From Paludibacter propionicigenes WB4 (GTDB lineage: Bacteria > Bacteroidota > Bacteroidia > Bacteroidales > Paludibacteraceae), in the NCBI RefSeq assembly GCF_000183135.1, contig NC_014734.1, positions 930,001-994,000 of the forward strand: a DNA stretch of 64,000 nucleotides, given 5' to 3'. Within the stretch, counting starts at the first letter, position 1; every line of letters begins with the position of its first letter. The translations under genes were made by a program, and so were the position numbers. The notes beneath the pieces were generated by a model. It searched no databases. It was not told the origin of the DNA and saw nothing but the letters and a program-made list of their open reading frames with translations. This document shows, piece after piece, positions 30,158 through 59,780 of this stretch.

Positions 30158-30307
30158 TACCTTTGCGCCGTAATTAAAAATTTATCCAATATGGACGACG
30201 ACCCTGCGATACAAAAATTAGTAAGAATCACCCTGATTCAATAAGGTTCGTCTGTTTGCATCTTCCTCTCAGCCGCCTTTTTGAGTCAACAAAAAATGGA
30301 GGTGGCA
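30158..30307 (+). promoter_or_regulatory. Leader of the metal-transport operon (uORF plus RBS-masking hairpin)
   Basis: A TACCTTTG promoter element (30158-30165) is followed about 25 bases on by a 17-codon ORF (30191-30244). A hairpin GAATCA-CCC-TGATTC (30225-30239) lies in the ORF's last codons. A second hairpin pairs GCCGCCT (30272-30278) with AGGTGGC (30300-30306), with one G-U. This covers the AGG of the ribosome-binding site GGAGG (30298-30302), 5 bases before the ATG at 30308. The layout suggests translation- or ion-controlled expression. No M-box or Mn2+ riboswitch core was recognised. Confidence 0.55.
30191..30244 (+). CDS. Putative leader peptide, 17 residues, acidic/proline start
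   Basis: The frame reads MDDDPAIQKLVRITLIQ and ends in TAA at 30242. Three Asp plus Pro directly after Met are the kind of start that destabilises ribosomes at low Mg2+ in the enterobacterial MgtL leader, which also has 17 residues. It lies about 20 bases after the likely transcription start and 64 bases before the MgtE-N gene. Translation is inferred only; a chance ORF of this size is possible. Confidence 0.4.
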   Translation: MDDDPAIQKLVRITLIQ

Positions 30308-31603
30308 ATGACATCACAAGTAACTTTCTATGTTAGCCAAATTATTGGCTGCAAGATCTATGACGTAAACGGAACCCGTTTAGGAAGCGTTATGGATATA
30401 ATGGTAAATACAGCTCAATCGGATGCATCTGTAGAAGATGCGTTCAGACCTGTAATTATCGGACTTAAAACTAAAACAAGTGGTACAGTTCGATATCTCA
30501 ATTTTGAACATATCAAAATTGTAAACAAGAATAAGCGTTTTTCATTCATCTGCCAACAAGCAGAAAACCTTGCTGAGAATGCTTTAGAAAACAGTTTGCC
30601 GTTGGTAAAAAATATTCTCGACAGACAAATCGTAGATATAAACGGACGCAAACTGGTACGCGTAAATGATATTCGGTTGGTTTCTATTGCATCAGGAACT
30701 TACGCAATAGCCGTTGATATAGGCACTGAAGGTCTGCTTCGCAGACTTGGAGTAGCCGGTATCGTAAACAAATCCCTACGTGTTTTCAACACTACACTTC
30801 CTACACGTTTTATCTTGTGGGACGATGTTGGTGCACTGGACAACACCAACTTCAACATTAAACTATCTCAAACATCCAGTAAGCTTCAACGATTACATCC
30901 TTCTGATTTGGCTGATATCATTGAAGAAATGGGTGCTCAATCGAGAACTAAGATTTTCGAATCACTTGATGAAGAACGGGCGGCTGATGTACTTGAAGAA
31001 ATGGAACCTTATGCTCAGGCTCAAATTATCGAAAGTTTATCGATAGGTAAAGCTGCGGACTTACTTGAAAAAATGCCCGCAGATGAGGTTGCCGATTTGC
31101 TCGATGAACTTGAAGATGACACCGTGGAGTTGTTGCTGAACGAAATGGAGAGAGAATCATCGGAAGAAGTCAGAGAATTACTGGAATACGAAGACAAAGA
31201 AGTGGGCAGTCTCATGACTACCGATTATCTTTCCTTCCGTGAAACAATGACAGTTGACCAGACTCTCAACGAGTTGCGTGAGCAAAAACCTGAGGCTGAC
31301 ATGATCTATTCATTATTCATCACCAATGAACAGGAAAAATTAATCGCCACCGTTTCATTAAGAGATTTGGTAATTTCGTTACCAACGATGACATTGGGCG
31401 AAATAATGAACAAACAAATTATCTGCGTTTCGGATGAGGACAAAATTGATACTCTGGCTGAAATTATTTCTAAATACGACTTGTTAGCCATTCCGGTTAC
31501 GGATGCAGAAAATACCTTGGTAGGTATGGTAGTAATTGATGATATTGTTGAAGACCTTATGTATAAAGGTAAAACGAAGAAAGGAGGTCGGTCATGGAGA
31601 TGA
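30308..31603 (+). CDS. Soluble PRC-barrel / MgtE-N / CBS-pair protein
   Basis: The 431-residue protein has two PRC-barrel-like segments ('IIGCKIYDVNGTRLGSVMDIMV', 'ILDRQIVDINGRKLVRVNDIRLV'). A MgtE N-terminal superhelix follows (about 190-290, 'LHPSDLADIIEEMGAQSRTKIFESLDEERAADVLEEM...') and a CBS pair (about 300-425). It has no transmembrane region, so it is not a full MgtE channel. In MgtE these domains sense Mg2+, so a metal-sensing partner of the adjacent transporter is inferred. ATG 30308 is chosen because GGAGG lies 5 bases before it; ATG 30296 and TTG 30281 are less likely. It overlaps the next gene by 10 bp. Confidence 0.85.
   Translation: MTSQVTFYVSQIIGCKIYDVNGTRLGSVMDIMVNTAQSDASVEDAFRPVIIGLKTKTSGTVRYLNFEHIKIVNKNKRFSFICQQAENLAENALENSLPLVKNILDRQIVDINGRKLVRVNDIRLVSIASGTYAIAVDIGTEGLLRRLGVAGIVNKSLRVFNTTLPTRFILWDDVGALDNTNFNIKLSQTSSKLQRLHPSDLADIIEEMGAQSRTKIFESLDEERAADVLEEMEPYAQAQIIESLSIGKAADLLEKMPADEVADLLDELEDDTVELLLNEMERESSEEVRELLEYEDKEVGSLMTTDYLSFRETMTVDQTLNELREQKPEADMIYSLFITNEQEKLIATVSLRDLVISLPTMTLGEIMNKQIICVSDEDKIDTLAEIISKYDLLAIPVTDAENTLVGMVVIDDIVEDLMYKGKTKKGGRSWR
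31580..31588 (+). promoter_or_regulatory. Perfect Shine-Dalgarno site of the NRAMP-related gene
   Basis: AAAGGAGGT lies 5 bases before ATG 31594 and is fully complementary to the standard 16S rRNA tail. Most genes in this window have no such site, and Bacteroidetes ribosomes normally hide that tail. Confidence 0.8.
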
Positions 31604-32856
31604 TAAAAATGACAGAATTTACCAAAAGACGAAAGAATATCTGGCGCAATATAATTGTCTTTCTGGCTGTTCTTGGTCCGGGTATTATTACCGGCAGCGT
31701 AGACAACGATGCCGGAGGGATTACCACTTATTCAATAGCTGGCGCTTTGTATGGTTACAATTTACTCTGGACCATGATTCCCGCATTGATTGTGCTTATC
31801 GTTGTACAAGAAATGAATGCCCGCATGGGAATTGTTTCCGGTAAAGGGCTAGCCGATTTAATTCGCGAAAATGCAGGTGTCAAAATTACGTTCTTTATTT
31901 TCGTTGGTCTGCTTATAGCCGATATAGGTAACACTACCACTGAATTTGCCGGAGTAGCTGGTAGCATGCAGGTTTTCGACATCAGCAAGTATATCAGTGT
32001 ACCCATCGCCTCTGCCCTCGTATGGTGGTTGGTAGTAAAAGGTACCTATAAATTCAGTGAACGGGTTTTTCTTATTTTTAGTGCGTTTTTGCTTGTTTAC
32101 GTCGTTTCTGCTATAATTGGAAAACCCCATTGGCATGATATAGGTCGGGCAATGATTAAACCCGATATTCAATACAATAAAGAGTATCTGGCAATAGTTA
32201 TTGGTATCATCGGAACCACCATTGCTCCATGGATGCAATTCTATATGCAGTCGGCTGTTATCGAAAAAGGATTGACTATCTCCGATTATAAATATACGCT
32301 TTGGGACGTTATCATAGGAAGTATAATAACGGTGGTAGTAGCATTCTTCATTATTATAGCATGCGCGTCAACGTTACATCTGAATGGCATCAAAATAGAA
32401 GAGGCTAAAGATGCGGCTATGGCATTAAAACCTATTGCCGGCGATTTAGCATCAATCACGTTTTCATTTGGATTGTTTATCGCATCAATTTTCTCGGCAA
32501 CCATCCTTCCCGTTGCTACGGCTTTTTACGTATGCGAAGCTTTTGGTTGGGAAGCAGGTATCGACAAAAAATGGAAAGAAGCACCACAGTTCTACTGGCT
32601 ATTTACCTTTATAATCATTCTCGGGGCTGCTATTATTTTAATTCCCAATGCACCACTGATTGTTATTACGCTGTGGTCTCAGGTTGCTAACGGATTATTA
32701 CTGCCTATCGTATTAGTTTGCATGATGCTGATAGTAAACAACAGGGAAGTTATGGGTAACTACGTAAACAAACCCTGGCAAAACATCATTGGTTGGACAA
32801 CTATCACTATTTTGATAGGATTGACGATTACGCTATTTGTTTCTTCGTTTTTTTAA
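31594..32856 (+). CDS. NRAMP-related divalent-metal (possibly Mg2+) transporter
   Basis: The 420-residue protein has about 11 transmembrane helices with the NRAMP layout. The TM1 motif DPGN of Mn/Fe carriers is Asp37-Asn38-Asp39-Ala40 here ('GPGIITGSVDNDAGG'). The TM6 Met-Pro-His is Ala211-Pro212-Trp213 ('TTIAPWMQFY'). Loss of the soft-metal-binding Met to Ala is a feature described for NRAMP-related Mg2+ transporters. With an MgtE-N/CBS protein before it and CorA after it, Mg2+ (or Mn2+) transport is the best guess. A perfect Shine-Dalgarno site precedes it. Confidence 0.8.
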   Translation: MEMIKMTEFTKRRKNIWRNIIVFLAVLGPGIITGSVDNDAGGITTYSIAGALYGYNLLWTMIPALIVLIVVQEMNARMGIVSGKGLADLIRENAGVKITFFIFVGLLIADIGNTTTEFAGVAGSMQVFDISKYISVPIASALVWWLVVKGTYKFSERVFLIFSAFLLVYVVSAIIGKPHWHDIGRAMIKPDIQYNKEYLAIVIGIIGTTIAPWMQFYMQSAVIEKGLTISDYKYTLWDVIIGSIITVVVAFFIIIACASTLHLNGIKIEEAKDAAMALKPIAGDLASITFSFGLFIASIFSATILPVATAFYVCEAFGWEAGIDKKWKEAPQFYWLFTFIIILGAAIILIPNAPLIVITLWSQVANGLLLPIVLVCMMLIVNNREVMGNYVNKPWQNIIGWTTITILIGLTITLFVSSFF

Positions 32857-32935: not shown

Positions 32936-33883
32936 ATGGGTGAATTAAGAATATTTTATCACGAGGATAACAAGATCAAGATATCAAAAAGCCTTGATAT
33001 CTTGAAGAAAGTTACCCTGAAAGAATTGGTTTGGATTGATCTGAATGATGTATCTGAAGATATAGAAGACAAACTGGAAGAATTTCTTAAAATCTATATT
33101 CAGGAAGATGAAGAGATTGAAGAAATTGAAATGAGTTCGCGCTATATGCAAACTGATGACAGCATTGTTGCCAACTCCAATTTTTTACAGGAAAATTATA
33201 CTGTAGAGCCGGTTTCGTTTATAATTAAAAATGGAATTCTGGTATCTGTAAGGCATGCGGAACTTAAATCTTTCAGCGAAACTGTAAAGAAAATTTTTGC
33301 AAACTCACGTAACTTTATTACAGGTTATCACGTACTGGTTACGCTGCTTGAAACGCGCGTAGAGTATGATGCCGACATGATAGAAGATGCCACAGATCTG
33401 ATTACAGGCCTTAGTAAGACTCTGAATACAGAAGATGATTTGGATCAGGGCATCTTGATTAGAATTAAAGACTTACAGGAAAAGGTAATGATTATCCGTC
33501 AGAATATCATGGATAAACAACGTGTTGTATCCAACATGCTGAAATGCAATTTTTTCCCCGAAGAATTATTGCCAAGGCTTACAATGATTATTAAAGATAT
33601 AAACTCTCTTTTTGAATATACCCGATTTGGATTTGATAGACTGGATTATCTCCAGGATACTTTTCTGGGTTTAGTAAACTTACAGCAGAATAAGATAATA
33701 AAAATATTTACTGTAGTATCTGTAATCTTTATGCCCCCTACCCTTATAGCAAGTATTTATGGTATGAACTTTAAGCATTTGCCTGAATTGGACTGGAAAC
33801 TTGGCTATCCTGTATCAATTTTAATGATGGTGGGATTTTCTGGAGCAGTTATGCTCTATTTTAAAAAGAAGAAGTGGTTGTGA
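32936..33883 (+). CDS. corA: CorA-family Mg2+/divalent-cation channel
   Basis: This 315-residue protein has a large cytosolic N-terminal domain with a long stalk helix and two C-terminal transmembrane helices. The first ends in the signature 'IYGMNF' (Gly-Met-Asn, about residue 281), and the short loop 'KHLPELDWKLGY' follows. CorA channels mediate Mg2+ (also Co2+, Ni2+) influx and close when cytosolic Mg2+ is high. Its own promoter and the clustering with two other metal genes indicate a divalent-cation homeostasis locus. Confidence 0.92.
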   Translation: MGELRIFYHEDNKIKISKSLDILKKVTLKELVWIDLNDVSEDIEDKLEEFLKIYIQEDEEIEEIEMSSRYMQTDDSIVANSNFLQENYTVEPVSFIIKNGILVSVRHAELKSFSETVKKIFANSRNFITGYHVLVTLLETRVEYDADMIEDATDLITGLSKTLNTEDDLDQGILIRIKDLQEKVMIIRQNIMDKQRVVSNMLKCNFFPEELLPRLTMIIKDINSLFEYTRFGFDRLDYLQDTFLGLVNLQQNKIIKIFTVVSVIFMPPTLIASIYGMNFKHLPELDWKLGYPVSILMMVGFSGAVMLYFKKKKWL

Positions 33884-59075: not shown

Positions 59076-59780
59076 TCAGGATTTATAAAGTATAAAGATA
59101 CAAGGTCTTTTGCTCAATTCAGGAAGCTTCGTTTTCCATTCTTTCACCGTATTGGTTTTGATAAATTCGGTTTCCAAAGTAATGTCCGCAGCAATACATA
59201 ACCGGGTAGCAGGCTGACAAACCCGGAGAATTTCTTCCAGCATCTTCATATTGCGGTAAGGCGTTTCGATAAAGATCTGAGACTGATTTTCAGAATATGC
59301 TCTTGATTCCAGTTTTTTTAAGGCTTTGGAACGTTCGTCGGGCTGTATGGGCAGATAACCGACAAAAGCAAAACTCTGTCCATTGAAACCCGACGCCATA
59401 AGCGACAACAAAATGGACGATGGACCAACAAGCGGAACTACCGTAAAATTGTGCCGTTGGGCAATAGCCACCACATCGGCACCCGGATCGGCAATGGCAG
59501 GGCATCCGGCTTCGGACAATACGCCAATATCGTTTCCGTCGAACATTGGTTTCAGAAATCCGCTCAATTCCTCGGGCGATGTATGCTGATTGAGAACATA
59601 GAAAGTCAGACTGTCAATATCAATGGCAGGGTTCGATTTCTTGAGAAACCGACGGGCTGTACGCACATCTTCCACTATAAAATACCGCAAGGCTGTAACA
59701 ATCCCGGTATTATACGCGGGAAGAATTCTACTAAAATCACACTCGCCCAGCGAAGTTGGAATAAGGTATAAGTTTGGCAT
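59076..59780 (-). CDS. RsmI-like SAM-dependent methyltransferase
   Basis: The 234-residue tetrapyrrole-methylase-fold protein shows 'YLIPTSLGE', 'YFIVEDVRTARRFL', 'GVLSEAGCPAIADPGADVVAIA', 'LVGPSSILLSLMASGFNGQSFAFVGYLP' and 'IFIETPYRN'. These are the features of RsmI, which methylates the 2'-O of C1402 in 16S rRNA. Bacteroidetes often carry a second, divergent member of this type, so the exact target is not certain. Confidence 0.85.
   Translation of the reverse strand: MPNLYLIPTSLGECDFSRILPAYNTGIVTALRYFIVEDVRTARRFLKKSNPAIDIDSLTFYVLNQHTSPEELSGFLKPMFDGNDIGVLSEAGCPAIADPGADVVAIAQRHNFTVVPLVGPSSILLSLMASGFNGQSFAFVGYLPIQPDERSKALKKLESRAYSENQSQIFIETPYRNMKMLEEILRVCQPATRLCIAADITLETEFIKTNTVKEWKTKLPELSKRPCIFILYKS

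Follow-up and report, generated by a model that had tools for sequence, protein, structure and literature searches.

Directly upstream of a Mg2+ transporter operon in Paludibacter propionicigenes WB4 lies a very short open reading frame (sORF) that begins with acidic residues and a proline, which raises the question of whether it is a leader through which the translating ribosome senses Mg2+. The DNA analyzed here (the window) is a stretch of 64,000 nucleotides, positions 930,001 to 994,000 of contig NC_014734.1, and all coordinates given below refer to it. An earlier note on this DNA had claimed a 17-codon ORF at 30191..30244, preceded at about 20 bases by a promoter element and followed by a cluster of MgtE-N/CBS, NRAMP-related, and CorA genes. 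The ORF is found where it was placed and encodes MDDDPAIQKLVRITLIQ, and the domains of the three downstream genes were recovered by Pfam. The promoter element, TACCTTTG, is present as well, but the gap between its end and the sORF ATG is 25 nt and not ~20 nt. The features concerned are the following.

30158..30165, + strand: TACCTTTG, putative promoter element, read from the sequence and recurring in relatives as TAnnTTTG.
30191..30244, + strand: leader sORF MDDDPAIQKLVRITLIQ, 17 codons plus TAA (ATG at 30191, TAA at 30242-30244).
Codons 1-5 of the sORF 30191..30244, + strand: MDDDP, proposed destabilizing start, from the codon pattern.
30308..31603, + strand: gene 1, with PRC barrel, MgtE_N, and CBS domains (Pfam; start taken from the Shine-Dalgarno sequence [SD] and the orthologues).
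31594..32856, + strand: gene 2, NRMT-like Nramp transporter, predicted to carry Mg2+, overlapping gene 1 (Pfam Nramp; best relative 7qia).
32936..33883, + strand: gene 3, CorA Mg2+ transporter (Pfam).

The 17-codon ORF of the window is a real, conserved leader. A relative of gene 1 is present in 28 of 295 genomes drawn evenly from the order, representing 23 genera, and in 27 of these 28 genomes an ATG-initiated sORF of the form MD..P starts 93 to 126 nt before gene 1, the single miss being L012. Among 49 orthologous loci (at least 42% identity), which include 14 close Paludibacter-like relatives (L030-L042 and L074, two of which, L032 and L074, appear to come from a single genome), 43 possess an MD..P leader; the six loci without it are L012, L034, L038, L039, L045, and L046. 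No MD..P leader was found in the distant gene 1 relatives L047-L071 (25 loci, about 26-31% identity). Dinucleotide shuffles of the 170-nt upstream regions contained an MD..P sORF with an ATG start and at least 8 codons in 212 of 21,500 cases, and this rate of about 1% is what speaks for a chance sORF. Such a reading can practically be dismissed, being refuted by conservation: the pattern holds in 27/28 evenly drawn leaders, and leaders of the same type also precede CorA and MgtE genes in relatives. The lack of conservation among relatives that the earlier note had named as damaging to its idea is, by the same 27/28, not what is observed.

It is the beginning of the peptide that is maintained. 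Typical starts are MDDDPA, MDEGPD, MDDGPA, MDGDPA, MDSDPA, MDADPG, MDPEPA, and MDPYPS. The codon pattern was derived from 40 of the 43 leaders, with identical sORFs counted once, as was also done in the two arm-position and helix C tests described below. Codon 2 is GAC or GAT and codon 5 is CCT or CCG, with pairwise differences at positions 1, 2, and 3 of 0, 0, and 0.14 for the former and 0, 0, and 0.41 for the latter, i.e., Asp2 and Pro5 show third-position changes only. Codons 3 and 4 mostly exchange D, E, and G: the residues encoded are D (23 sORFs), E (11), G (2), P (2), S (1), and A (1) at codon 3 and G (22), D (15), L (1), E (1), and Y (1) at codon 4. In codons 7 to 10, the pairwise differences exceed 0.48 throughout, which is near saturation, and the peptide is not conserved from codon 7 onward. 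These sORFs were chosen by the MD..P rule, outside of which fall the placement of proline at exactly position 5 (40/40) and the third-position pattern. The first proline is at position 5 in 41 of the 43 leaders and at position 3 in the other two, both of which also have Pro5. By this pattern, the acidic residues and the proline within the first five codons are conserved as amino acids. The first 5 or 6 residues are kept as a peptide and the C-terminus is not, which would fit a destabilizing start that acts early and is unlike a C-terminal arrest peptide. Thus, the check proposed in the earlier note, namely, whether the sORF and its D/E/P-rich start are kept with synonymous change, comes out in its favor (27/28 and 43/49 loci, with codons 2 and 5 changing in the third position only).

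A different arrangement is seen at L034, L038, and L039, where an sORF starting MDDYHSELL, a start devoid of proline, lies within ~420 nt 5' of gene 1. Behind it comes another sORF, of some 35 to 50 codons, whose conserved C-terminus, F.FPVEQF.TPIP, looks like that of an arrest peptide; the FPVEQF.TP motif had no match among 159 genomes of the order. Judged by eye, pairing by an arm of the first leader could mask the region where the second sORF starts.

The codon pattern also bears on the reading that the locus is an RNA-only Mg2+ riboswitch, in which the conserved ATGGAYGANGGNCCTGCG block would be an RNA element and the sORF incidental. In some lineages, the start block can indeed form a helix with the RNA that follows the stop (helix C, below). 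However, the block varies by codon, through third positions, D/E/G swaps, and the variants MDPEP, MDPYP, MEEDP, and MKDDP; the pairing arms described below keep pairing and not sequence; and Rfam has no match at gathering score, all of which makes a riboswitch a very unlikely explanation. The Rfam search at gathering score covered 17 loci, the window's own leader included, and returned nothing; at relaxed score, the window gave three below-threshold snoRNA/miRNA matches (E 2.6-6.7), at the level of chance. The M-box (ykoK) riboswitch, a Mg2+-responsive leader of Mg2+ transporter genes, was considered as a candidate and rejected, since it matched neither the window, even under the relaxed score, nor any of the 17 loci under the gathering score.

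The leader has a recurrent layout. A TAnnTTTG sequence, of the TACCTTTG type that we take to be the Bacteroidota-type -7 promoter element, occurs within 90 nt 5' of the sORF in 41/43 leaders, at a median gap of 26 nt. The Bacteroidales leader sORFs range from 10 to 23 codons, and no SD is evident before them. Neither an intrinsic terminator nor an excess of sigma-70-like promoters over shuffles was found in the leader.

The genes behind the leader were examined for their likely substrate. Gene 1 most likely starts at ATG 30308, behind GGAGG at 30298-30302, and its nearest named relatives are from Paludibacter sp. and Bacteroidales MAGs, at up to 89% identity. The best solved relative of gene 2 is 7qia (E 6e-112), and the next sequence, an MntH, follows at E 3e-26. 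7QIA is named in the EleNRMT paper (PMC8806188), passages of which describe EleNRMT as an uncoupled Mg2+ transporter and list, as changes in the binding site, Gly replacing Asn in helix 1, an Ala-to-Thr and a Met-to-Ala change in helix 6, and a Trp in the place of a His. When aligned with 7qia, the gene 2 stretches NDAGG and TTIAPW match the NRMT binding-site changes given in those passages, with the helix 1 Asp kept. By its best solved relative, gene 2 is closest to the Mg2+ transporter EleNRMT, and by these residues it appears to belong to the NRMT branch of SLC11/NRAMP, and the window operon looks like a Mg2+ operon. An NDAGG protein is encoded 3' of gene 1 in 39 of the 43 leader-bearing loci, the exceptions being L022, L025, L028, and L029, the last of which is counted as an exception with only 66 nt of sequence available 3' of gene 1. 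Another CorA gene is located elsewhere in the P. propionicigenes genome, at G000:C1:2759719-2760591.

To what genes the leader is attached was asked with a blind pattern, ATGGAYGANGRNCC...GGAGG, searched in the 295 genomes of the order. The pattern gave 36 matches in 34 genomes, compared with 5 for a reversed control pattern. Of 30 retrieved loci, 20 qualify as leaders under a strict rule that requires TAnnTTTG within 60 nt and caps the sORF at 30 codons, and all 20 stand before Mg2+ transporter genes (13 gene 1, 5 CorA, and 2 MgtE). In a wider sense, defined after the matches were known and adding L083, L284, and the gene 1 leaders of G217, G294, and G195, 25 of the 36 matches are stand-alone leaders, again all before Mg2+ transporter genes (17 gene 1, 6 CorA, and 2 MgtE); the remaining 11 lie inside longer open frames or lack the promoter element. 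By Pfam, all eight non-gene-1 cases are CorA or MgtE. Two further CorA leaders, MDEGPRYRKIKL (L207) and MDEGPYHSRINY (L223), came from 90 CorA genes examined, comprising the 30 best-scoring and 60 short-form genes among the matches listed in at least 198 genomes. Seven leaders were found among 86 of the 87 listed MgtE genes (the 87th being L102), namely, that of the L080/L157 gene, MDDVPGYIKQVY, MDDGPYHSWREQKY, MDDVPDYHSCNN.., MEEDPYRSYSREKETMC, MKDDPYSCCLINH, and MDEGPYSSKN. The leader is thus linked with three kinds of Mg2+ transporter genes, the NRMT operon, CorA, and MgtE.

This association argues against an attenuator that responds to amino acid or general translation status, through charged tRNA-Asp, -Gly, or -Pro, and not to Mg2+. 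The logic of the pairing arms would fit any cue that halts the ribosome at codons 2 to 5, but 25/25 stand-alone leaders from the blind search precede Mg2+ transporter genes. Moreover, D, E, G, S, A, and P interchange at codon 3, a freedom not expected of a charged-tRNA sensor, and such an attenuator is judged quite improbable.

Within the CorA and MgtE families, the leaders are an exception that is tied to certain subfamilies, and most of the CorA and MgtE genes examined are without one. L151, L237, and L266, MgtE genes with similar N-termini, have no leader in 175 nt, and no counted leader was found among the FELTREY-like MgtE genes, the 30 best-scoring CorA genes, or the CorA group starting MIETIKIGTL; looser regular-expression matches at L156, L185, L197, L212, L231, and L247 were left uncounted. 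In the MIETIKIGTL group (L168, L170, L175, and similar), GGAGG- or GGGGA-like letters often occur before the start. The CorA leaders L224 (MDDDSCIRY) and L227 (MDDHHSYDY) keep the acidic start, with the proline absent. In 390 genomes outside the order, the pattern gave 22 matches compared with 18 for the reversed control, and only two of the 22, the window's own (L100) and L294 of G454, have TAnnTTTG and no long open frame over the match. G454, which belongs to the same phylum but not to the same class, has the leader MDDDPGGLTNLNNHE (L044/L294). The only other loose-pattern match in the P. propionicigenes genome, at window 59413-59426, is antisense within the ORF 59076-59780 and was taken as chance.

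Three RNA arms can be delineated in the stretch from the last codons of the sORF to the ATG of gene 1.

30234..30247, + strand: arm 1, 5' arm of the anti-sequestor, overlapping the sORF stop codon (predicted duplex with arm 2).
30272..30288, + strand: arm 2, common arm, a partner for either arm 1 or the SD arm (duplex and swap tests).
30291..30306, + strand: arm 3, 3' arm of the sequestor, holding the SD GGAGG (30298-30302) (predicted fold).

In the window, the duplex of arms 1 and 2 (helix A) is predicted at -16.5 kcal/mol, with 0/200 shuffles as low, and arm 1 occupies nt 44 to 57 counted from the sORF ATG. The duplex of arm 2 with arm 3, the SD region (helix B), is predicted at -15.2 kcal/mol (p 0.05) and also appears in the predicted fold. 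Across the 43 leaders, helix A averages -12.5 kcal/mol compared with -7.7 when arm 2 is shuffled, and helix B averages -14.3 compared with -9.5 kcal/mol; taken singly, 26/43 leaders for helix A and 27/43 for helix B reach p <= 0.05. Arm 2 is common to both helices in 42/43 leaders, and arm 1 touches the stop codon in 35/43. Because the 49 loci hold 14 close relatives, the swap test, in which arm 1 was looked for at nt 31 to 64 from the sORF ATG, was redone on the 27 evenly drawn leaders, which still include some pairs of one genus. Helix A averages -15.5 within genomes and -10.2 between genomes, helix B -14.3 and -11.4, and neither mean was reached in any of 5000 genome swaps or any of 300 shuffle sets. 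The arms of each genome therefore fit each other, i.e., they covary, conserving pairing and not sequence. The 18 CorA/MgtE leaders (omitting the duplicates L195 and L157 and the judged non-leaders L185, L212, L151, L237, and L266) behave similarly, with helix A at -14.2 compared with -8.0, helix B at -10.4 compared with -6.6, a common arm in 18/18, and p <= 0.05 in 12 leaders for helix A and 10 for helix B. These tests point to two mutually exclusive pairings around the sORF and the SD that covary between genomes.

The position of arm 1 was examined in the 40 non-identical leaders. The best partner of arm 2 over the whole leader lies near the stop in 29/40 (9.3 expected); the other 11 comprise four long sORFs with the partner 48 to 60 nt from the ATG and seven with the partner near the sORF start. 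The spread of arm 1 over all 40 leaders (sd 15.7 nt from the stop and 16.2 from the ATG) decreases to 5.7 and 3.8, respectively, in the 29 leaders with the partner near the stop, and in 7 sORFs of 18 to 23 codons, arm 1 is found at 46 to 60 nt from the ATG, a hint, judged after the fact, that arm 1 is tied to the ATG more than to the stop. Anchoring an 11-mer count at the stop discriminated less well than searching in free register: it gave 8.4 vs 7.6 pairs, and 9 or more pairs were reached in 21/40 leaders vs 0.19 of shuffles. An mgtQ-like stem 1:2, in which the sORF start would pair with RNA 3' of the stop (helix C), averages -11.5 vs -10.1 in the gene 1 set (Fisher 0.003); it is weak, with p <= 0.05 in few single leaders (3/40 gene 1, 1/10 CorA, and 2/8 MgtE), and is not claimed.

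How strongly ribosome position would shift the balance between the two helices was estimated by equilibrium folding with a ribosome footprint blocked at the stop or at the start of the sORF. In the 43 leaders, covering the stop region gives a mean SD accessibility of 0.09 and covering the start one of 0.16, the free leader having 0.10; shuffles give 0.25 (stop) and 0.23 (start), and the window gives 0.14 (stop) and 0.17 (start). The stop-versus-start difference beats shuffles at the 0.05 level in only 9/43 leaders, and the whole window leader folds at a z of only -1.5. In this model, SD sequestration at equilibrium is real and the sequestor wins, but the predicted switch is modest. With so modest an equilibrium switch, the choice between helices would have to be kinetic, and for the same reason, support for two states comes from the complementarity of the arms and from the swap tests.

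The make-up of the sORF, together with the pairing arms, suggests that the ribosome itself is the magnesium gauge that switches uptake on. We consider it probable that the leader is a translational attenuator in which the ribosome dissociates at MDDDP when Mg2+ is low. Transcription would start just 3' of TACCTTTG, and a ribosome would then initiate on the leader sORF. With ample Mg2+, the ribosome would pass MDDDP and cover arm 1, upon which arm 2 would pair with arm 3 and hide the SD of gene 1 together with its start region (OFF). With low Mg2+, the acidic and proline-containing nascent start would cause the ribosome to drop off or stop at about codon 5, where its footprint would end before arm 1; the free arm 1 would capture arm 2 once the latter is made, leaving arm 3 open and the NRMT/CorA operon translated (ON). 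We infer the translation of the sORF, the drop-off at MDDDP, the dependence on Mg2+, and the co-transcriptional (kinetic) choice of helix. The Mg2+ leader proposed in the earlier note gains support from the conservation of the sORF, the occurrence of the same leader at CorA and MgtE genes, the NRMT-like character of gene 2, and the RNA arms over the SD.

The same anatomy could also operate with a ribosome that does not dissociate at the acidic-proline start but is stalled or slowed there, through a shortage of EF-P or slower elongation at proline in low Mg2+. A ribosome at codon 5 would, given the size of its footprint, not reach as far as arm 1 of the window, and a stall would thus yield the same ON state. 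Furthermore, translation of mgtL proline codons has been proposed as the sensor of Salmonella mgtA (Gall 2016, as cited in passages of PMC11552253). Nevertheless, the acidic residues at positions 2 to 4 recur as regularly as Pro5, the start of most leaders contains a single proline, and E. coli studies of bL31 and EttA favor destabilization at MgtL, according to passages of PMC11282234 and PMC11552253. Stalling is accordingly regarded as unlikely, though deserving of attention, and dissociation is retained as the preferred reading.

Comparison with the known acidic leaders clarifies what kind of device this would be. MgtL, the leader of mgtA in E. coli and Salmonella, starts with EPDP, with Glu2 and Asp4, and its ribosomes dissociate in low Mg2+ (passages of PMC11282234 and PMC11552253). 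The Bacteroidales leaders share the acidic/proline start and, by prediction, destabilization and the ON state in low Mg2+; in L025 (MDPEPANS), even the [D/E]P[D/E]P order is that of MgtL EPDP. Conversely, MgtL belongs to another phylum and another transporter, and no similarity is seen beyond the acidic-proline start. The output of MgtL is described in the same passages as Rho-dependent termination, although one of the sources (PMC11552253) contains a statement that such termination was undetected for E. coli mgtA. MgtL proper was rejected for the window, where the downstream genes are PRC-MgtE_N-CBS, Nramp, and CorA, and not mgtA. Judging from the phylum, the genes, and the predicted output, the device is likely independent in origin from MgtL.

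The second comparison is with MgtQ, a uORF in the Salmonella mgtC-mgtB intergenic region with Asp2, Pro4, and Glu5, whose acidic codons destabilize the ribosome; in the model given in passages of PMC8092293, stems 1:2 and 3:4 alternate with stem 2:3, such that 3:4 hides and 2:3 frees the mgtB SD. The likeness to that description extends to a short acidic/proline ORF, alternative stems, and, by prediction, destabilization of the ribosome at the acidic codons, the hidden or freed SD of a Mg2+ transporter gene, and a translational output. MgtQ differs, according to the same passages, in being gammaproteobacterial and intergenic, in having 8 codons and its own strong SD, in controlling mgtB, and in its proline, which acts by base pairing, whereas the Bacteroidales leader lies 5' of the first gene, has 10 to 23 codons with Pro at 5, and has a weakly supported stem 1:2. 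MgtQ proper was likewise rejected, the window sORF having 17 codons and lying outside the mgtC-mgtB setting. CorL, finally, is a uORF lying in the leader of corA, which encodes a Mg2+ channel in E. coli and Salmonella, and its translation is inverse to corA expression (passages of PMC11552253); as described there, it has fewer acidic and proline residues and is Rho-based, whereas in Bacteroidales the leaders of CorA genes have MD[D/E]GP-like starts and arms that overlie the SD. The Bacteroidales leader is not an orthologue of MgtL or MgtQ and would be a fresh variant of the acidic-leader Mg2+ attenuators; by analogy, it may represent the MgtL/MgtQ principle in another phylum. The earlier note knew of no such leader in this phylum, and among the open-licence PubMed Central papers covered, no description of one in Bacteroidota was found.

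The SD itself poses a separate question. GGAGG precedes gene 1 in 39/43 leaders, compared with a crude count of 1/35 window ORFs of at least 200 aa that have GGAGG 5' of the first ATG. Bacteroidia ribosomes are reported, in passages of PMC9976891, not to recognize SDs, so that hiding the SD need not be the control point. The conserved GGAGG would be either kept as a pairing arm or used by these mRNAs to engage a special ribosome pool. Flavobacterium rpsU provides a precedent for bS21-lacking ribosomes with a free anti-SD. It is conceivable, if rather doubtful, that Bacteroidales employ one design on the NRMT operon, CorA, and MgtE, that combines Mg2+ sensing by ribosome stability, convergent with MgtL, with a GGAGG that reserves these mRNAs for free-anti-SD ribosomes. 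If true, this reservation would constitute a second layer of Mg2+ control, one of ribosome heterogeneity. That ribosomes of this class reportedly ignore SDs, yet Mg2+ genes carry a conserved one, can be tested directly.

Nascent-chain Mg2+ sensing through intrinsic ribosome destabilization was discovered in enterobacteria. The 58 natural leaders assembled here (40 non-identical gene 1 sORFs and 18 CorA/MgtE leaders) represent a mutational series for nascent-chain instability. If the same logic holds in these bacteria, on three unrelated transporter families, ribosome destabilization would be a Mg2+ gauge of bacteria in general rather than a peculiarity of enterobacteria.
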